In this document: piece by piece, positions 6,091 through 52,985 of the stretch
Position numbering within the stretch: position 1 is the stretch's first letter
How the letters are laid out: each line of letters opens with the position of its first letter
From: an uncultured Gemmatimonadota bacterium
GTDB taxonomy: Bacteria; Gemmatimonadota; Gemmatimonadetes; Gemmatimonadales; Gemmatimonadaceae
Assembly: GCA_903910555.1 (NCBI GenBank)
Contig: CAIVZZ010000029.1
Span: 62,001 to 126,000 of the forward strand
Reading direction: 5' to 3'
DNA length: 64,000 nt
Made by a program: the position numbers and the translations under genes
Notes under the pieces: model-generated
Told to the model about the DNA's origin: nothing
Database searches by the model: none
What the model saw: the letters and a program-made list of their open reading frames with translations, nothing else

Positions 6091-7115
6091 CGCGCACGCC
6101 GACAGAACGCGTATGCATCGTGATGATGAGCGCGGTGGGCGACGCCGTTCACGTGCTCCCCGTGATCAACGCGTTAAAGAAAGCGAATCCGGCAACGCAT
6201 ATCACCTGGGTTTTGCAGCCGGGTCCGGCGACGCTTGTGCGCGGGCATCCGTACGTCGACGAAATTATTCTGTTCGATCGGTCCGCCGGTGTGCGCGGCT
6301 TTCTCGATATCCGTCGCGAACTGCAGACGCGCCAATTCGATCTCGTGATCAATCTGCAGGTCTATTTTAAAGCGGGAATCATCACGTCGTTCACCCGTGC
6401 GCCGGTGAAGCTCGGTTTCGATCGTGCACGCGCGCGCGATTTCAATTGGCTGTTCACCACGGACAAGATCGTGCCGCATGCGATGCAGCATGTGCAGGAT
6501 CAGTACTTCGAATTCTGCGACTGGCTCGGCATTTCGCACGAACCCGTGAAGTGGGGATTGGGACCGTGGGACGGCGAGCGCGAATGGCAACGCGATTTCT
6601 ATTCGCGGATCGAACGCCCGGCCGTGCCGATCGTGGTCGCGACGAGCAAACCCGACAAAGACTGGATGCCCGAGCGCTGGGCTGAAGTGTGCGATGCGCT
6701 GTACGCGGACTTCGGAATGCAGCCGGTGCTCGTGGGCGGTCGATCGCCGCGCGAGGAACATGCAGAGCACGTGATTCTCGAGCGCACGAAGTACAAGCCG
6801 ATATCGGCGCTTGGATCCGGGCTGCGCAAACTCGTTTCGATTTTCGACGGCGCGGCGCTGGTGATTTCGCCGGATACCGGGCCGCTGCACGTGAGCGTTG
6901 CGCTCGATAAGCCGGTGGTCTCGCTGATCGGCTATTCAAATCCGAAGCGCGTCGGGCCCTACAGAAAATTCGGCGACCTGATGATCGATGTGTACGGCGA
7001 GGCGGGCGAGGATTATCCGGTCAGCATGGAGAACCGCACCGGACGCATGCACCGCATCAGCGTGCGCGACGTGCTCGACAAAGTCGAACTGTGGCGGACA
7101 ACGAGCAAAAAATAA
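6087..7115 (+). CDS. Glycosyltransferase family 9 (LPS heptosyltransferase-like)
   Basis: Transfers a sugar, in the best-known members L-glycero-D-manno-heptose from its ADP form, to the LPS inner core. The 342-residue protein has the family's N-terminal MMSAVGDAVHVLPVINAL motif, the KPDKDWMPERWAEV donor-domain segment (~190) and the C-terminal PDTGPLHVSVALDKPVVSL nucleotide-binding block (~265). GTG start overlaps the kinase stop by 4 bases. It is the last gene of the trpE-cyclase-kinase run; a long palindrome (7122-7232) follows at once and probably ends transcription. WaaC versus WaaF versus a non-heptose donor cannot be decided from sequence alone. Confidence 0.88.
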   Translation: MTRTPTERVCIVMMSAVGDAVHVLPVINALKKANPATHITWVLQPGPATLVRGHPYVDEIILFDRSAGVRGFLDIRRELQTRQFDLVINLQVYFKAGIITSFTRAPVKLGFDRARARDFNWLFTTDKIVPHAMQHVQDQYFEFCDWLGISHEPVKWGLGPWDGEREWQRDFYSRIERPAVPIVVATSKPDKDWMPERWAEVCDALYADFGMQPVLVGGRSPREEHAEHVILERTKYKPISALGSGLRKLVSIFDGAALVISPDTGPLHVSVALDKPVVSLIGYSNPKRVGPYRKFGDLMIDVYGEAGEDYPVSMENRTGRMHRISVRDVLDKVELWRTTSKK

Positions 7116-7121
7116 AAGCCT

Positions 7122-7232
7122 CCCGCGGATTTCACGGATTTAGCGGATCAAACTTCTTGAGGGAACTGCGCTCGCGGAAACGAGTGCAGTTCCCCCAAGT
7201 ATTTAATCCGCGAAATCTGCGAAATCCGTGGG
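7122..7232. repeat. Nested ~110-bp imperfect palindrome between convergent genes
   Basis: Outer arms at 7122-7148 and 7206-7232 match as inverted repeats at 23 of 27 positions. An inner hairpin at 7156-7199 has a 9-bp GGGAACTGC/GCAGTTCCC core, extended by CTCG/CGAG around a CGGAAA loop and by CTTG/CAAG outside. The right arm is itself built of three degenerate 9-mers (AATCCGCG, AAATCTGCG, AAATCCGTG). It lies between the converging glycosyltransferase and maf genes, so it can serve as a bidirectional terminator. Confidence 0.85.
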
Positions 7233-7246
7233 AAAACAGTTGCAGT

Positions 7247-7852
7247 TCAGCGTCGTACGAATTCATACGCCACGCCGAGGCGTTCCAACAGCGCAATCAG
7301 CCTCCGAAGACCCAGCCCCATCACGCTGAAATAATCGCCGTTTACGCGCTCGACGATCGTCGCACCGAACCCCTGAATACCGTACGCGCCCGCCTTGTCC
7401 ATTGGTTCGCCGGTCGCGATGTACGATCCTATTTCATCGTCGGTCACCGTGCGAAAGGTGACTTCTACGGACTCGACGGCTGATTCGGTGTGCGTGCCGC
7501 GCGCGACGGCGATCGCCGTGAGCACGATGTGCGTGCGCCCGCTCAAGCGCTTGAGCATCGCACGCGCGGCGGCCTGATCGGCGGGTTTGCCGAGCACATC
7601 CCCGTCGACCACAACGATCGTATCGGCCGCGATGATCACCGCATTTGGTTCGCGCTCTGCAATCGTGTGCGCCTTGGTGCGCGCGAGACGTTCGGCGTGC
7701 GCCGCCGGTTTCTCTCCCGGCAGCAACGACTCATCAATATCAGCCGGGCGAACCTCGTGCGCGATGCCGACCAGCGACAGCAGTTCCCGGCGGCGGGGCG
7801 AAGCAGAAGCGAGAATTACGCGTTCGGTATGAATGCTCACTTTTCCAGCCAT
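7247..7852 (-). CDS. maf: Maf-like nucleotide pyrophosphatase
   Basis: House-cleaning enzyme that hydrolyses non-canonical or modified nucleoside triphosphates (dTTP/UTP or m7GTP, depending on subfamily) to monophosphates. The 201-residue protein shows the family signature [13 protein letters not shown] at residues ~13-25, then [23 protein letters not shown] and the C-terminal [20 protein letters not shown] block, which together form the active site. The QGFG wording is typical of the dTTP/UTP subfamily. It overlaps the 3' end of dtd by 16 bases, so the two are cotranscribed; a slightly later start is possible. Cytoplasmic. Confidence 0.92.
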
Positions 7853-44417: not shown

Positions 44418-45770
44418 CTACTTGAGTCGCGCGCGCTCGAGATGCGTGATGTTGCCGTCGACGACGCCCATGTAAACCACGCCTCCCACACCAAAGCCCG
44501 CGATGACGCGGCCCGGCGGGATAAGGACTCGATCCTTGAGTTCGCCCTTGTTGTTGATCACATCGTAGACCGTACCACCCTTCACCATCTGGCTCGTACG
44601 AATCCAAAGGTTTCCGTCGAGGTCGCCGCGGGCCGCGCCCTGGCGAAACGCCGGTCGATAATCAGGCATCTCACTTGGCGTCACGAAGCTCAGCGGTGGC
44701 ATCGTGAAGCCTACCGGAACCATTCCCGCTCCACCGCCGTCACCGCCACGACCGCCGATCATGATCGTCATGTTCGTGCCGCCGTCCGCCGCCACTTTCT
44801 GACGGCCGCCTTTGGAGGTGTCCGGCGCATTGCCCTTGATGTTCGGATTCATGGCCTCGGCGGCCGCGACCTGCGCTGCCCGCATCTTTTCCATCTGGCC
44901 GCGCGTTGAGTCGATGATCGCGATTTTGTCTTCGTCGGTGAGCCGCTGCCAGTCGAACGCGATCTTCGGCCCCGCCGTCATCTTCCCGTCCGCAGCAAAA
45001 AAGTCCACGCGATAATCCTGACCGCGCACAATCGCGAGCGTTCCGTCGGAGAGCATTGCCCAGTCATCTGTCCACGGCATCGGATTCACCGTGGTCGTGA
45101 CGGTGATGCGCCCGGTGTTGTCATCGCGCGTCATGTTGAGATTGACTTTCGGAATCCGGAACGTTGCGACCGTGTCGACTTTGCGCGTCTTGAGATCGAC
45201 ACGGACGACAATCGACGACTCGGGAAGCTGCGGCATCTGCGGCACACCACCGGCGCCCATTCTGCCGAAGTTCGCTCCCGGTCGAAACTGCGACCGGTAA
45301 ACCAGCCTGCCCTGCGCATCGTAGCCGGGCGTTCCGTTCGGACCGCCGATGAGCGAGTTGACTTCATTCGGCAGCGGTGCGGCCATCGTGCGAACGATCT
45401 TGCCGTTCGGATCAATCACCAGCATCGAGATCGACTGCGGATCTACGAAGAGCGTCGAGTCACCGCGAAATGCGATCAGGCCGCCGATACGCGATCCGTA
45501 CGCCATACCGGTTGCGCTCGTGGAATCCGCGATCACGGTGACGCTCTTGAACGTCGAGTCGAGGAGGAGCACACGCCGTCCGGTGAGATCGTGCACAATC
45601 ACACGCCCCCCCGGCAGCGCGCGCACCTGCGAGACCGCCGCGAACGGCTCGGTCGAAGTCGCGAGCACGGGCCCGAGCGGGCGCACCGGCGGGAGCGTCT
45701 GCGCCCCCGCAATCGATGCGATTGCCGTACATGCGACGGCGAAAATCTTGCTGATGGTTTTCATGGCCAT
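44418..45770 (-). CDS. Exported β-propeller-like protein with a glycine-rich insert
   Basis: 450-residue protein with a signal peptide (IFAVACTAIASIAGAQ). Repeats of the kind GGRVIVHDLTGRRVLLLDST, RGDSTLFVDPQSISMLVIDP and DDWAMLSDGTLAIVRGQDYRVDFFA, here shortened, suggest a 6-bladed β-propeller. Around ~325-350 sits a low-complexity Gly/Arg insert (IGGRGGDGGGAGMVP), one of several in this region. It begins 15 bases after the TonB-receptor stop, so the two are cotranscribed and the propeller may be its periplasmic or surface partner. Specific function unknown. Confidence 0.7.
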   Translation of the reverse strand: MAMKTISKIFAVACTAIASIAGAQTLPPVRPLGPVLATSTEPFAAVSQVRALPGGRVIVHDLTGRRVLLLDSTFKSVTVIADSTSATGMAYGSRIGGLIAFRGDSTLFVDPQSISMLVIDPNGKIVRTMAAPLPNEVNSLIGGPNGTPGYDAQGRLVYRSQFRPGANFGRMGAGGVPQMPQLPESSIVVRVDLKTRKVDTVATFRIPKVNLNMTRDDNTGRITVTTTVNPMPWTDDWAMLSDGTLAIVRGQDYRVDFFAADGKMTAGPKIAFDWQRLTDEDKIAIIDSTRGQMEKMRAAQVAAAEAMNPNIKGNAPDTSKGGRQKVAADGGTNMTIMIGGRGGDGGGAGMVPVGFTMPPLSFVTPSEMPDYRPAFRQGAARGDLDGNLWIRTSQMVKGGTVYDVINNKGELKDRVLIPPGRVIAGFGVGGVVYMGVVDGNITHLERARLK

Positions 45771-45785
45771 TGGTGATGAGAGTTT

Positions 45786-48700
45786 CTAGCGTACGATCGA
45801 GATGAATTGCCCGCCGCCGCCGATCGCCGCCGTCGTCGAGGAGAACGGATTGCCACCCGCGCCGGCAGTGCCTGACCGGATCGACTGCAGATACCAAGTG
45901 TCGAGCGAACTGGTGACGATATCCGGCAGCTTGCGGCGCTGCTCGGCCGTCAGCAGCGTCTTCACTCCTGGTGTGACTCTCAGCAGGAGATCAACGGTTG
46001 CTTCGCGAGCCGCACGATATCTGTTGTAGGCGGCGTTGTGATCGTAGTGCGTCGGCAATGCGGCGAGTTCCTTTGATACCGGCGTCCAGATCGAGTCGAC
46101 GCGAATCGTGTACCAGCGATTCAGCGTCGCAATGCTGTCTGCCTGATCACCCGTGAGATGCAGCGAGTCGGCCTGACGCAGGATTTGCGGCAGCGGATTG
46201 AAAATCGCGTTCGTGCCGTAGAGCGCCTTCAGAATCGGCTCCTGAATCCTGGTGCCGTCGGTGGTGCGCCCACGATCCAGCGTTTGCGTCAGGGTCTGCC
46301 GCTCGCGTGTCGGTGCCGTATCCCAGCGGAGCAGAGCAACGACGCTGACCGGTGCGAGCACCGAGTTGAACGCGGTGTTCGACGAGCCGAACCGCTGATT
46401 GACTGCGTAGCTATACTGTTTTGTGGTCTGATTGAAGCCGCGCACGTACAACAGGTTGTTGTCGATGAACGGCGTCTGTCCCCACCCCTGCAGATGGTTC
46501 TCGCCGTTCAGCACGAGGTCGGCGGCGCCGAGCGGGTTGTTGATCGACAGCGAGAACGTCGCGCGCTGCGGCAGGTGCAACTTCAGCGGATTGAACGAGA
46601 TGTTCAAACTCGCGCTGGTCGTCCACGGCCCTTCGCAGGTGTTCAGTGCCGCAAGCTGACCGATCTGGCCGCTGAGGCAGTCGCGCACGCGCTGCGATGC
46701 GCCACTCAGCAGCTGCTGCATCGACGCGGCGAGAACCGGGTCCGCCGTGGTCGCGGGATTGAAGACAAACGCGCGATCGTTGGAGTAGCCGTCGCCATTG
46801 ACGTCACCCTGAATGATCGGCGTGAACGGCGTACCCGACTGGAAGCGGCCGGTCCACTGCACGCGCACCGTATTGAAGAAGTTGTACGACAGCGTGTACT
46901 GAACCTGATGATGCCAGTCACCCTGCGCGCGCGCCCACTGCAGATCGAGCGGATCACCAACGGTGCTGCTGAATCCGCGCGTTTGCGTGCGGTTGTTCTG
47001 ATACGTGTACGAGAGATTCCAGCTCCACTGCGTATTGAACGTTGTCGGTCCGAGTGACAGCTGGAGCTGCTGCGTGCGCGAGGTGAGATCTGTGCGCAGC
47101 TGCGTCACGCGGTTGAACGCCGAACTGATGCGTCCGTCGCCCGACGCAATGATTCCCGAGTTCGGATCGATGCTCGTCGGGTTCACATACACCGGGCGAT
47201 TGCCTTCGCTTGCGAGCGCGAACCGTTCGGTCGGATTGAAGTTGAGATCGACCGTTTCCGGCTGGTTCATGTTGAGCGAGTACGTCCCGCCGAACGTCGC
47301 ATTGAACAAGTTGTTCAAAATTGCGCCGGTCCACTGCAGGTTGCCGCGCAGGCTGCGCGGCGACGTATAGTCGTTCGCGGCGAGAAGCACGTTCGGCGCA
47401 CTGCTCGCGAACGGCGTTCCCGCGGATCCTGCCGCGCACTGCGACGGAATCAGTCCGGGGCTGTTCGCGTAGTCCTGCCAATCAGGTGCCGGCGCGGCGT
47501 TGCCCGCGCAGGTGATTTGCTGCAGCGCATTCGCGAGGCCGGTGTTCGCCATCGTCCCCGAGAGCAGCGTGGTCGAAGGCGTGTTCTGGAAGAGACCGAC
47601 GCCGCCGCGCACCACCGCGCGCGGTCCGCGGAATGCGCCGTCGAATCCCGCCACCTGCGCCGCCGTGCCGTACGTGTACGAGAATCCGATGCGTGGGCTC
47701 ATGAAGACATGATCCGGCGCAAAGTTGTTCTGCGTGCCGTAGAGCTGCTGCACGAGCGGATTCGCAGTCGCCGCGCCGATGTACTGATTGCCGTCGAGAC
47801 GCACGCCATACTGAATCTGAAGGTCGCTGTTGACCTTGTACGAATCGCCGAGCGCGAGACCGGCAACGTACTGCCCGCCGTTCTGTTCGTTCAGGCTCAA
47901 CGTGCGCGAATACAGCGCCGGTGTGCCGGCGGCGAGATCGCCTAGCGAATTGAAATAGAAGCTGCCGAGCGTATTCGACGTCTGGTTCAGCACGTAGTCG
48001 TCGCGGCGGATTTCCGACGACAGTTTGATGCGGTGCTTGTTGTTCTCGCTGAACCACGACAGCGTGTTCGTGACGTCGAAGCTCGTGTTGTATGTGCTCG
48101 TGTTCTGGAGCGTGCTGCCACCGAACGAAATCGTTTTCGACACGTTCGATCCATCCGGGAAGACCGAACTCACCAGCACCGATCCACTCGGCAGCGCGTC
48201 GAACGGCGTGATGTACGTGCGGTTCGCGCTTGCCGACACGCCCGTTTCGCTCAGGATGCCGAACCAGAAATAGGTCGAGTGACGGAACTGCAGCTGACCA
48301 TTCCAGTTCGTCCGATCCGCGCCGTGCGCCGGGAACTCGGACGTGCTCACGCCGATCGGTGCAATCTTCGCCCACGATCCAAGCAGCGTAAGGTTGTACG
48401 CGGCGCCGGTCTTCGATCCGGGCGGCGCGAAGTCCATCACGGCGAGCACGCTGCCGTTGTCCGTGAGTCGGTCGCCGCCGAGTCCGCCGCCGTTCAGCGG
48501 AATCTGCTTCGCTTTGAGAATCGAGATCAGCCGCGCCGCCGAGTCAGGCGAAATGCCGGCAGTGGTGAAGCCGAGTGAATCAGTGTTCAGCGGTGACACG
48601 AGGTCGCTCGACCGCTGACCGAGCTGGTATGCAATGTTATAAAACGCCTTGTCGATCGAGAGCGGACCCGAGGTCTGGCCGCTGAGCGAGAGGTTCGAAT

Positions 48701-49508
48701 ACTCCTGGCCGAGGGCGCGCGCCGAAGATGTCGTGAACTCGAGCGCGGGCGCCTCGAGCACGAGGCTGGAGCTCTGATTGATGAAGTTCGATCCCGATCG
48801 CAGACGGATGTTCTGGTTCGCGCCGCTGAATCCGCCGCGTGCAACATCATAGGGCGAGATCGTCAGCGACGACGTCGTCTGCGCGTCACGCGGAAGATTC
48901 GACGCGTTGCTGTTCATCCCGTTCAGCGTCGTGCTGTTCTGATCCGGCGTCAGCCCGAGCACGGAGAATCCGGATGGATCCCCGTTGGCTCCCGCGACGT
49001 AGTTCACGCCCGGTATCGACGCGGCCATCGCGGCGAGGTCACCGAGCTGGTCGGCGGTGAGCGAACTGTTGTTGATGGTTTTTTCGGTGCCGCCGATATC
49101 GGGCTGCACGTCGTTGCGGGTCGTCTTGTCGCGCGGTGCGGTGACATGCACCGCGTCGAGCTGATTCGCGACGGTCGACATGCGCGCGTCGGCCACGAGA
49201 ATATCTTCGTCGGCCGCGCGTTTGAGCTCGTACTGCTTCGGCGCGTAGCCGAGCGCGACGAACTTCACGAGGTAATCACCGTCGCCATTCGGAAAGGTGA
49301 TCGTGTAGCGGCCGTTGCGATCGGTCTTCGCGGACCGGTTCACACCGCCGGAGATCGTCGTGACGGTGACGGTCGCGTTGGGGATGGCGGCGCTGTCGGC
49401 GGCGTTGCTGACGCGTCCGCGGATGACATCCGCCTGTGCGGCGGCGGAGCGGGCGAACGAAATCGAACCAAAAGCAATGAGGAGGCACGCGGCGCGTCGG
49501 AAGATCAC
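45786..49508 (-). CDS. TonB-dependent outer-membrane receptor with C-terminal LTxxQ extension
   Basis: 1240-residue outer-membrane receptor. The GTG at 49508 is chosen because AGAGGAG lies seven bases before it and a signal peptide (RRAACLLIAFGSISFARSAAAQ) starts right after. An N-terminal CarboxypepD_reg-like β-domain (~28-110, GRVSNAADSAAIPNATVTV, DRNGRYTITFPNGDGDY) precedes the plug (~120-240) and a 22-strand barrel. The barrel seems to end near residue 1065; the last ~170 residues are soluble and helical with two LTxxQ motifs (LTGDQ ~1118, LTAEQRRKLP ~1186), as in Spy/CpxP chaperones. No SusD partner is near. Ligand unknown. Confidence 0.88.
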   Translation of the reverse strand: MIFRRAACLLIAFGSISFARSAAAQADVIRGRVSNAADSAAIPNATVTVTTISGGVNRSAKTDRNGRYTITFPNGDGDYLVKFVALGYAPKQYELKRAADEDILVADARMSTVANQLDAVHVTAPRDKTTRNDVQPDIGGTEKTINNSSLTADQLGDLAAMAASIPGVNYVAGANGDPSGFSVLGLTPDQNSTTLNGMNSNASNLPRDAQTTSSLTISPYDVARGGFSGANQNIRLRSGSNFINQSSSLVLEAPALEFTTSSARALGQEYSNLSLSGQTSGPLSIDKAFYNIAYQLGQRSSDLVSPLNTDSLGFTTAGISPDSAARLISILKAKQIPLNGGGLGGDRLTDNGSVLAVMDFAPPGSKTGAAYNLTLLGSWAKIAPIGVSTSEFPAHGADRTNWNGQLQFRHSTYFWFGILSETGVSASANRTYITPFDALPSGSVLVSSVFPDGSNVSKTISFGGSTLQNTSTYNTSFDVTNTLSWFSENNKHRIKLSSEIRRDDYVLNQTSNTLGSFYFNSLGDLAAGTPALYSRTLSLNEQNGGQYVAGLALGDSYKVNSDLQIQYGVRLDGNQYIGAATANPLVQQLYGTQNNFAPDHVFMSPRIGFSYTYGTAAQVAGFDGAFRGPRAVVRGGVGLFQNTPSTTLLSGTMANTGLANALQQITCAGNAAPAPDWQDYANSPGLIPSQCAAGSAGTPFASSAPNVLLAANDYTSPRSLRGNLQWTGAILNNLFNATFGGTYSLNMNQPETVDLNFNPTERFALASEGNRPVYVNPTSIDPNSGIIASGDGRISSAFNRVTQLRTDLTSRTQQLQLSLGPTTFNTQWSWNLSYTYQNNRTQTRGFSSTVGDPLDLQWARAQGDWHHQVQYTLSYNFFNTVRVQWTGRFQSGTPFTPIIQGDVNGDGYSNDRAFVFNPATTADPVLAASMQQLLSGASQRVRDCLSGQIGQLAALNTCEGPWTTSASLNISFNPLKLHLPQRATFSLSINNPLGAADLVLNGENHLQGWGQTPFIDNNLLYVRGFNQTTKQYSYAVNQRFGSSNTAFNSVLAPVSVVALLRWDTAPTRERQTLTQTLDRGRTTDGTRIQEPILKALYGTNAIFNPLPQILRQADSLHLTGDQADSIATLNRWYTIRVDSIWTPVSKELAALPTHYDHNAAYNRYRAAREATVDLLLRVTPGVKTLLTAEQRRKLPDIVTSSLDTWYLQSIRSGTAGAGGNPFSSTTAAIGGGGQFISIVR

Positions 49509-49515
49509 TGAGATG

Positions 49516-49522
49516 CTCCTCT
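49516..49522 (-). promoter_or_regulatory. Ribosome binding site deciding the receptor start
   Basis: AGAGGAG on the minus strand, seven bases before the GTG at 49508; no comparable site precedes the longer in-frame start at 49565. Confidence 0.65.
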
Positions 49523-49591
49523 GCAGGGGATGTATGTCAACACGATGACAGTTAGTCTCGCGCAACTAATAAACGGTTTACTCCCGTGCGA

Positions 49592-49664: not shown

Positions 49665-52600
49665 ATGAGCCCCCGCCCCCACGCTGGTTTTTTTGCTCTT
49701 ACATTTTCGCTCGCGCTCGCTGCGGCGCAGCTGTCCGCACAGGGCGCGATCCCGGTTGCCGACCAATTCGAACGTCTCCACTTCCGTTCGATCGGACCGG
49801 CGATCATGTCGGGACGCATCTCCGATTTCGCCGTGTACGAGGCGAATCCGGCGATATTCTACGTCGGCACCGCGCACGGAGGCGTCTGGAAGACGACGAG
49901 CAACGGCGCACAATTCACGCCGCTATTGCAGGATCGCGGACTGCTTTCGATCGGCGCGGTTGCCGTGCAGCAGTCGAATCCGAATGTCGTCTGGGTCGGC
50001 ACGGGAGAGTCGAACAATCGCCAGAGCACGTCGTGGGGCGAGGGGCTCTACAAATCGACCGACGGCGGCAAAACGTTCGCACATGTCGGGCTGCGCGACT
50101 CCAAGCACATCAACCGCATCGTGATCGATCCGCGGAATCCGGATGTCGTGTTCGTCGCCGCGACGGGCCCGCTCTTCGGATCCGGCGGCGAGCGTGGCCT
50201 CTACAAGACCAGCGATGGCGGCAAGACGTGGAAAGCGGTCATCAAGGGCGACGCCGACACCGGTGCGAACGACGTGCGCATTTCGTATACCGATCCCGAC
50301 GTGATGTACGCGTCGATGTACCAGCGCCGCCGTACCGCCTGCTGCGTGAACGGCGGCGGGCCGGGCAGCGCGATTTTCAAATCGACCGACGCCGGCGAGA
50401 CGTGGACCAAGCTCGCGGGCGGCCTGCCGCCTTCGCCACTTGGCCGCATCTCGCTCGATATATATCGCGGCAGCTCGAATATCGTCTACGCAGAAATCGA
50501 AGGCGCCGCCGCGGCGACGGGACTGTATCGCACCGACGACGGCGGCACGTCATGGCGCAAAGTCAGCAGCGTGAATCCGCGCCCGCTCTACTTCTCGCAG
50601 GTCCGCATCGATCCGAAAACTCCCGACCGCGTGTACGAGGGCGGCGTGAAGATGCAGATGACGATCGACGGCGGGCGCACGATGGAGACGAGCGCGTCAC
50701 TCGCGATCCACGATGACATCCACGCGATCTGGGTTGATCCGAACAATTCCGAGCACGTGCTCATCGGCGGCGACGGCGGCATCGGCGTCAGCTACGACAT
50801 GGCGAAAACCTGGATTTTCCACGCGAATCTTCCGGTCGGTCTCTTTTACCACGTCGGCTTCGACATGGAGACTCCGTACAACGTGTGCGGCGGCATGCAG
50901 GACAACTACGACTGGTGCGGGCCGAGTGCGACGCGACAGGCGGTGGGGATCCTGAACAGCGACTGGTTCCAGATCGCCGGTGGTGACGGCTTCGTGTCGG
51001 TGCCGGACCTCAACAACTCGAAAATTATTTATACGGAAACGCAGGACGGCAACATGCAGCGCCGTGACAAGATCACCGGCGAATCGAAGAGCATCCGTCC
51101 GGGCGCACTGAACGTCACACCGGCGCCGGCAAAGGGAGAGGTATATCGCTGGGAGTGGGACACGCCGATGATCATCTCGCCGAACGACAACGGCACGCTC
51201 TTGGTTGCCGCGAACAAAGTCTTCAAGTCAACCGACCGCGGCGATTCATGGCAGGTGATCAGCCCGGATTTAACCAGCAACATCGACCGTGATTCCATCG
51301 TCACGATGGGGCTCAAAGGCGCAGACATCACCGTTTCGAAGAACGACGGCGTGAGCCTGTGGCCCGCGATCGTCACGCTCGCAGAATCACATCGCCAGCC
51401 GGGTGTGTATTACGCCGGCACCGACGACGGCAACGTGAGCGTCTCACGCGACGCCGGAAAATCGTGGCAGAACATCACGAAGAATCTCCCGGGCTTCCCG
51501 GCAGGCGGCTGGGTGAGCAAGGTTGCGCCGTCGCGCTACGACGCGGGCACGGTGTATGTCACCGTCGACAATCACCGTCTCAACGACTACGAGACGTACA
51601 TCTGGGTCTCGAGTGATTTCGGCGCGTCGTTTCACTCGCTGAAGTCGAACCTCCACGGCGAGTCGGTGAAGACGCTCACGGAAGACCAGCGCAATCAGGA
51701 CGTGCTGTACATCGGCACGGAGACGGGAATTTTCCTCTCGCTCGACCGCGGCAAGAGCTGGGCGCGCTTCAAGGCGAATCTTCCCACCGTTCGCGTCGAT
51801 GAGATCACGCTGCATCCGCGCGACAACGCGATGCTCGTGGCAACGCACGGACGCGCACTCTGGATCCTCGATCACCTCGAGCCGATTCAGGAGTACACCG
51901 CGGCAAAGGCAACTGCGGACGCAAAGCTGTACGGCATTCCGACGGCGCTCGAATGGAAGTCGAAGAACACGATCAACGAAGAGTTCTGGGGCCATCAGTA
52001 TTTCATTGGTGAGAATCCGTCGTTCGATGCGCTGATCAGCTACCAGGTGAACAAAGCGCTCCCCGATCTCAAGGTCCGCATCAACGATGGCAGCGGCAAA
52101 CTCGTGCGAGAGCTGACCGCTGCCGCGCGACAGACGCAGCCGGGGATCCAAACGATCTGCTGGGATATGCGCGTCGAGCCGCTGGCCGGCGATGAGGCCG
52201 CGGCTGCGGGCGGGCGAGCCGGCGGCGGCGGACGCGGCGGACGTGGCGGCGGCGCGGCCACACCGGCGGTGCCGGGCGTTCCGGTTTCGCCGAACCCCGC
52301 GGGATACCTCCCGGTGAATCCTTGCACTGGAGAACCATCCGGTGGGACGGAGCGAAACGCCGGCGGCGGCGGTGCCGCGCCCGCGAACATCGGGCCGCAG
52401 GTCGTACCCGGCAACTATACCGTCGCGCTCGTATCCGGCGGCAAGACGCTCGATAGCAAGTCAATGAAGGTGATCATGGATCCGGGGATCCCGGCATTCA
52501 CCGACGCGGCGCACCGCCGCTGGAACGAGGTGATTCTCGATCTGCAGGAAACACAGAGCCGCGGCAATGCGATGGAGCGCAAACTCGCGGCGCTCAACAC

Positions 52601-52985
52601 GCCGATGGTCGATGCAGTGATCAAGCTGAAAACCGCGACGAATGTTCCTGAGGCGGTAAAAACTCAGTTCGCGGACGTGAGCCGGCAGTTCGATAGTGTG
52701 AAGGTGAAGTTCGGAGTCGGAGCACCGCCAGCCGGCGGCCGCGGCGGTGGCGGCCGCGGCGGCGCAGATCCGGCGAACGCACTCGCGCGGACAGGCGCGA
52801 CGAAGACGGCGATCATGGGGATTTGGGAAGCGCCGAGTGCGGGGATGCTCAAGCAGTCGAGCGAGTCCAAGGCGGCACTGGTGCGGGCCATTGCTGAGGC
52901 AGAGGCACTGATGCCGAAGCTGTCGGCGGTGAGCGCGGAGCTTAAAAAGTATGAGATCGTGATTCCAGTACCGGCGGGTAAATAG
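49665..52985 (+). CDS. Exported VPS10/sortilin-like BNR β-propeller protein
   Basis: 1106-residue secreted protein; signal peptide FFALTFSLALAAAQLSAQG, and GAGGAGAAC ribosome site before the ATG. Residues ~30-740 carry many BNR/Asp-box-like repeats (SxDxGxTW: STDGGKTFAH, TSDGGKTWKAV, STDAGETWTKL, TDDGGTSWRKV, SRDAGKSWQNI, SLDRGKSWARF), the mark of sortilin-type propellers. A C-terminal β/helical region (~790-1106) is interrupted by two Gly/Arg inserts (52201-52260 and 52731-52770). Such proteins are annotated as glycosyl-hydrolase-like or photosystem-assembly-like without proven activity. Diverges from the TonB receptor; ends at a palindrome. Confidence 0.88.
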   Translation: MSPRPHAGFFALTFSLALAAAQLSAQGAIPVADQFERLHFRSIGPAIMSGRISDFAVYEANPAIFYVGTAHGGVWKTTSNGAQFTPLLQDRGLLSIGAVAVQQSNPNVVWVGTGESNNRQSTSWGEGLYKSTDGGKTFAHVGLRDSKHINRIVIDPRNPDVVFVAATGPLFGSGGERGLYKTSDGGKTWKAVIKGDADTGANDVRISYTDPDVMYASMYQRRRTACCVNGGGPGSAIFKSTDAGETWTKLAGGLPPSPLGRISLDIYRGSSNIVYAEIEGAAAATGLYRTDDGGTSWRKVSSVNPRPLYFSQVRIDPKTPDRVYEGGVKMQMTIDGGRTMETSASLAIHDDIHAIWVDPNNSEHVLIGGDGGIGVSYDMAKTWIFHANLPVGLFYHVGFDMETPYNVCGGMQDNYDWCGPSATRQAVGILNSDWFQIAGGDGFVSVPDLNNSKIIYTETQDGNMQRRDKITGESKSIRPGALNVTPAPAKGEVYRWEWDTPMIISPNDNGTLLVAANKVFKSTDRGDSWQVISPDLTSNIDRDSIVTMGLKGADITVSKNDGVSLWPAIVTLAESHRQPGVYYAGTDDGNVSVSRDAGKSWQNITKNLPGFPAGGWVSKVAPSRYDAGTVYVTVDNHRLNDYETYIWVSSDFGASFHSLKSNLHGESVKTLTEDQRNQDVLYIGTETGIFLSLDRGKSWARFKANLPTVRVDEITLHPRDNAMLVATHGRALWILDHLEPIQEYTAAKATADAKLYGIPTALEWKSKNTINEEFWGHQYFIGENPSFDALISYQVNKALPDLKVRINDGSGKLVRELTAAARQTQPGIQTICWDMRVEPLAGDEAAAAGGRAGGGGRGGRGGGAATPAVPGVPVSPNPAGYLPVNPCTGEPSGGTERNAGGGGAAPANIGPQVVPGNYTVALVSGGKTLDSKSMKVIMDPGIPAFTDAAHRRWNEVILDLQETQSRGNAMERKLAALNTPMVDAVIKLKTATNVPEAVKTQFADVSRQFDSVKVKFGVGAPPAGGRGGGGRGGADPANALARTGATKTAIMGIWEAPSAGMLKQSSESKAALVRAIAEAEALMPKLSAVSAELKKYEIVIPVPAGK

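Follow-up and report, generated by a model that had tools for sequence, protein, structure and literature searches.

Proteins of the LTXXQ family (PF07813), which includes Spy and CpxP and has CnrX and STV as structural relatives, carry a pair of LTxxQ motifs, spaced by about 70 residues, on either side of a long antiparallel helical hairpin. They are free exported proteins of the periplasm. Spy, for instance, is an ATP-independent periplasmic chaperone that binds polypeptides in a cradle-shaped dimer (PMC8144458, PMC3910116). A second relevant system is the Oar receptor of Myxococcus xanthus, which consists of an N-terminal CarboxypepD_reg domain, a plug and a large barrel. Secretion of the protease PopC depends on Oar, and the two proteins interact (PMC6434023). 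In a published survey, receptors of this sort were grouped by their N-terminal domains only. A literature search found no paper joining TonB receptors with LTXXQ domains, and the two papers containing both terms are, by their titles, expression studies. Searching titles and abstracts for C-terminal extensions of such receptors also gave no match.

The stretch of DNA analysed here, referred to as the window, comprises 64,000 nucleotides from a Gemmatimonadota bacterium. It encodes a receptor that shares the CarboxypepD_reg domain, plug and large barrel of Oar but, unlike Oar-type receptors, adds a C-terminal domain that would lie in the periplasm. This tail resembles LTXXQ proteins in its two motifs, their spacing and its predicted hairpin. 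However, it differs from the family in three respects: it is fused to a receptor barrel, it has diverged below Pfam detection, and it carries an additional conserved segment (YLDxRYLxSIRSGTAG) followed by a Gly-rich end. Both parts are known, while their fusion, together with a fixed partner gene, appears to be undescribed.

The receptor and its C-terminal tail

The receptor reading frame (positions 45786-49565, minus strand, as are all receptor and partner features below) contains 1259 amino acids when counted from an in-frame TTG at 49565, and residue numbers given here follow this frame. The sequence makes another start likelier, a GTG at 49508 with AGGAG ahead of it. The resulting product would have 1240 amino acids, in agreement with the residue numbering of the initial annotation. 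Three Pfam matches, all above the curated cut-offs, identify an Oar-type TonB-dependent receptor: CarboxypepD_reg (4.9e-15; residues 48-117, 49215-49424), Plug (2e-5; residues 159-245, 48831-49091) and OMP_b-brl_4 (1.1e-14), the last covering residues 474-984 of the barrel (46614-48146).

In an alignment with relatives, the final predicted barrel strand, APVSVVALLRWD (residues 1071-1082, 46320-46355), corresponds to their own last strands, after which their linkers and tails start. In the window protein, 177 residues lie past this strand. These comprise a linker delimited by alignment (residues 1083-1118, 46212-46319), modelled at lower confidence as short helices; the LTxxQ domain (residues 1119-1220, 45906-46211), defined through profile, PDB-sequence and structure comparisons; the conserved segment LDTWYLQSIRSGTAGA (residues 1221-1236, 45858-45905); and a Gly-rich end formed by the last 23 residues (45789-45857), which closes with the hydrophobic peptide QFISIVR. 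As the initial annotation had reported, the motifs LTGDQ (residues 1137-1141, 46143-46157) and LTAEQ (residues 1205-1209, 45939-45953) stand behind the barrel, exactly 68 residues apart. It had also located the extension correctly, in an interval that takes in a few residues from the end of the barrel. Since such barrels begin and finish on the periplasmic side, the tail is expected to share the periplasmic location of LTXXQ proteins.

Relationship of the tail to the LTXXQ family

The window protein itself does not match the LTXXQ profile, neither as the whole receptor (E up to 10) nor as the isolated domain (E up to 1), so that the HMM search proposed in the initial annotation as a check returned nothing. 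Used as a direct query of Pfam, NCBIfam and PDB sequences, the tail likewise matched nothing. Homology is visible through relatives only. For example, a strict profile of 30 window-type tails, built without the two paralogues, aligned with 26 free-standing LTXXQ proteins at an hhalign probability of 94.3 (E 1e-7, 87 columns), with both motifs in register, compared with 12.7 for a reversed decoy. This establishes homology to recognised family members at the profile level. When a tail profile including the paralogues was run by hmmsearch against 10,510 frames, every LTXXQ-bearing receptor that had been fetched was recovered first, followed by free LTXXQ proteins, which ranked above nearly all unrelated frames. 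Without the paralogues in the profile, the matches to sister receptors were weaker.

Some sister receptors carry a recognisable LTXXQ domain. In L148, L149 and L150, CarboxypepD_reg, OMP_b-brl_4 and LTXXQ (E 1.7e-7 to 8.3e-7, over the cut-off) occur in one frame each. At least 16 of the 149 genomes of the class that were scanned contain over-cut-off LTXXQ matches inside frames of 1225-1456 amino acids; six of these, along with a paralogue from the window's own genome, were confirmed as receptors by a domain check. When 32 tails were scanned singly against families, LTXXQ was the commonest weak match (5/32), and it matched weakly in 38 of 95 domains, a set that includes about 23 non-window-type members. 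Against PDB sequences, a mixed profile found E. coli Spy as its best match (1.1e-10) and also CpxP (1.7e-6), while a mostly window-type profile matched Spy at 7.6e-6. A profile of receptor tails only ranked Spy first at a non-significant E of 0.14.

The predicted structure is compatible with these results. An AlphaFold model of the trimmed domain (45858-46241, 95 sequences) reached a pLDDT of 90.2 and a pTM of 0.82. It consists of short helices, a pair of long helices running antiparallel (31-60 and 68-96) and further short helices, with no strands. The initial annotation had described about 170 helical residues, but the helical part spans about 100-130; model confidence is low for the barrel-adjacent residues and the Gly-rich last 23. 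In VIA-align, the trimmed domain aligned with STV (5ihf; Z 6.7, 99/109 residues, rmsd 3.3), CnrX (2y3h; Z 6.6) and CpxP (3itf, Z 6.0; 3qzc, Z 5.3), covering about 80-90% of those chains. Unrelated helical bundles tie with these family members (Z near 6-7), and the structure thus fits the LTXXQ assignment without proving it. Spy itself was not among the VIA-align matches listed, and Foldseek with the trimmed domain gave no significant match. A first model, with poorly predicted ends, had no LTXXQ-family member among the matches listed from Foldseek or VIA.

LTxxQ is a short motif, and the plug region contains it twice more (residues 169 and 205), which makes the motif alone weak evidence; the pair was for this reason rejected as decisive proof by itself. 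These extra copies and the lack of a direct Pfam match in the window protein would fit chance motifs within an unrelated helical extension. However, shuffling the 181-residue tail produced a pair spaced 55-85 residues apart in 0.14% of cases (0.8% for the whole protein), and the evidence from profile-profile comparison, intermediate sequences, PDB profiles and structure points the same way, which renders a chance origin highly improbable. The Spy/CpxP-like domain recognised in the initial annotation is upheld by the hhalign match, the Pfam-positive sister receptors, the ranking of Spy among PDB sequences and the predicted hairpin. From profile comparison and modelling, the tail very probably belongs to the LTXXQ (Spy/CpxP/CnrX) fold family and is joined to the periplasmic C-terminus of an Oar-type receptor.

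Conservation and composition of the tail

Among 72 aligned tails, nearly all window-type, the motifs are strongly retained. In motif 1 the leucine is invariant and the glutamine is present in 71/72; in motif 2 the glutamine is invariant (72/72) and the leucine is found in 69/72. Identity to the window protein is 58% in the tail and 51-56% in the barrel, so that the tail is conserved equally with the barrel, and LDTWYLQSIRSGTAGA has the highest mean identity of any tail part (69%). This conservation across genomes, at barrel-like identity and with the motif glutamines kept, also indicates that the tail is more than a chance extension. A sub-variant was seen in three receptors (L169, L170 and L171), whose tails end in FAFFF or similar Phe runs in place of the Gly-rich stretch with IxIIR.

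The composition of the tail bears on whether it could act as a sensor. Like CpxP or CnrX, the tail could relay the state of the receptor, misfolding or the presence of metal to a sensor in the inner membrane or to an anti-sigma factor. Both CpxP and CnrX appear in the list of structural matches, and Metal_resist was matched by 11 members of the mixed alignment. Yet no column among the 72 tails exceeds 40% His or Cys, and Met is common at just two (58% and 40%). The tail thus has a predicted fold related to that of CnrX and ZraP (Metal_resist) without their conserved metal-binding residues. Metal sensing, which the initial annotation had suggested, is unlikely on these grounds and was set aside. 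In addition, the conserved adjoining gene encodes a propeller-like protein rather than a sensor kinase or a sigma/anti-sigma pair, and a signalling role as a whole seems improbable.

Distribution and genomic context

Tailed receptors are widespread among relatives of the window genome. The tail was detected (E up to 1e-3) in 122/395 genomes of the phylum, nearly all from the same family; in most cases it closes a frame of about 1,250-1,350 residues. While the initial annotation knew of no standard receptor type with such an extension, the architecture is thus no one-off and is common in the family. A scan of one genome per species across 84,980 species returned 79 loci, all but four labelled Gemmatimonadota. 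Two of these four (L066 and L106) are receptor contigs in a MAG labelled Candidatus Kuenenia stuttgartiensis; their receptors are Gemmatimonadota-like and they are probably contamination of the bin.

The window's own genome encodes four receptors with this barrel type, three of them tailed. One of the tailed paralogues is split over two overlapping frames (L147:3848-6865 and 6289-7578, G000:C13), pointing to a frameshift that may stem from mutation or assembly error. The fourth receptor ends in an ordinary final strand, and the tail must therefore be dispensable for assembly in general. This argues against a tail that has no role in transport and serves instead to help the barrel insert or to anchor the receptor, whether on peptidoglycan or on other envelope proteins. 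The position of the tail directly behind the final strand and the Gly-rich linkers of sister receptors would suit such a function, but no known peptidoglycan-binding family was matched in Pfam or NCBIfam, and we consider assembly or anchoring an unlikely role.

A second gene accompanies the receptor. Starting 15 bases downstream of it, this gene (44418-45770) encodes a 450-amino-acid protein with an apparent signal peptide. The protein has no family assignment of its own in Pfam or NCBIfam, and its profile found nothing significant in the PDB. Its relatives give weak propeller matches, on which basis we read it as exported and propeller-like. Downstream of the receptor, nearly always immediately, a homologue of this protein is present in 76/79 loci; in the remaining three (L057, L103 and L109) the contig stops within 150 bases of the receptor. 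Since the tailed receptor recurs throughout the family, with the same secreted partner wherever the contig extends, sequence comparison identifies it as a real, little-noticed architecture that is common in this bacterial family. The pairing also occurs in two genomes of other families: G349 (L158), which belongs to the same class, and G345, which belongs to the same order.

The partner is absent at the Pfam-positive sister receptors (L148-L157) and at the two paralogues in the window's genome (L146 and L147), and the partnerless sister receptors have divergent tails. Three orphan partners without an adjoining receptor (L167, L168 and L172) were also found, and the idea that the partner is exclusive to tailed receptors was rejected on their account. 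The partner family as a whole is widespread and has no family name, with matches in 221/390 genomes of the phylum, at times as tandem copies. On the other side of the receptor, the divergent neighbour (49665-52985 of the window) encodes a 1106-residue Sortilin/BNR-repeat protein.

Possible roles of the tail

The best explanation of the whole, put forward tentatively, is that a Spy-family periplasmic tail on an Oar-type receptor acts as a docking module for the partner. Judging from barrel topology, the LTxxQ domain would hang in the periplasm on its short linker, next to the plug. Its Spy-derived polypeptide-binding surface may hold the exported propeller-like protein at the barrel's periplasmic opening, and receptor and docked partner could then act together as a single transport unit. 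Against this account stand the window protein falling below LTXXQ significance, the null Foldseek result and the VIA-align scores tied with unrelated bundles.

Within the window-type subfamily, docking of the co-encoded partner is the likeliest function of the tail, though put forward with somewhat less confidence still. It is supported by the presence of the partner in 76 of the 79 loci, by the two genomes outside the main family that keep the pair, and by the divergence of partnerless tails. On the other hand, linkage between receptor and partner is a property of the whole gene and not of the tail specifically, and orphan partners occur with no receptor beside them.

Alternatively, the tail could be a tethered general holdase that binds the plug as it unfolds under TonB pull, or cargo in the barrel, much as Spy uses its cradle (PMC8144458, PMC3910116). 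The sequence relationship to the Spy family is in keeping with this, as is the need for Oar, a receptor of the same N-terminal architecture, in PopC secretion (PMC6434023). However, 58% identity in the tail and 69% in the segment behind the domain seem high for a non-specific binder, and Spy acts as a dimer, a state that is hypothetical for a membrane-bound tail. General holdase activity is accordingly the less likely function here, and the strong conservation of the tail together with its fixed partner suggests specific docking instead. In the divergent, partnerless sister receptors, the fold may retain an older role, that of a holdase loosely binding the plug or a passing polypeptide.

The interaction between Oar and PopC raises the possibility, and only suggests, that the window receptor has a role in protein movement. 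By analogy with Oar and PopC, the tail and the exported partner could together serve as a periplasmic station of chaperone and cargo, belonging to a protein-moving TonB receptor with a built-in chaperone, although we regard this extended scheme as improbable.

Concluding remarks

In this large bacterial family, an outer-membrane transporter has incorporated a fold of a periplasmic chaperone family and retained it throughout, together with a dedicated partner gene. The architecture offers a concrete, testable case of a module placed at the periplasmic opening of a TonB receptor, a site where a resident chaperone domain is not commonly described. It also bears on whether Oar-type receptors move proteins.
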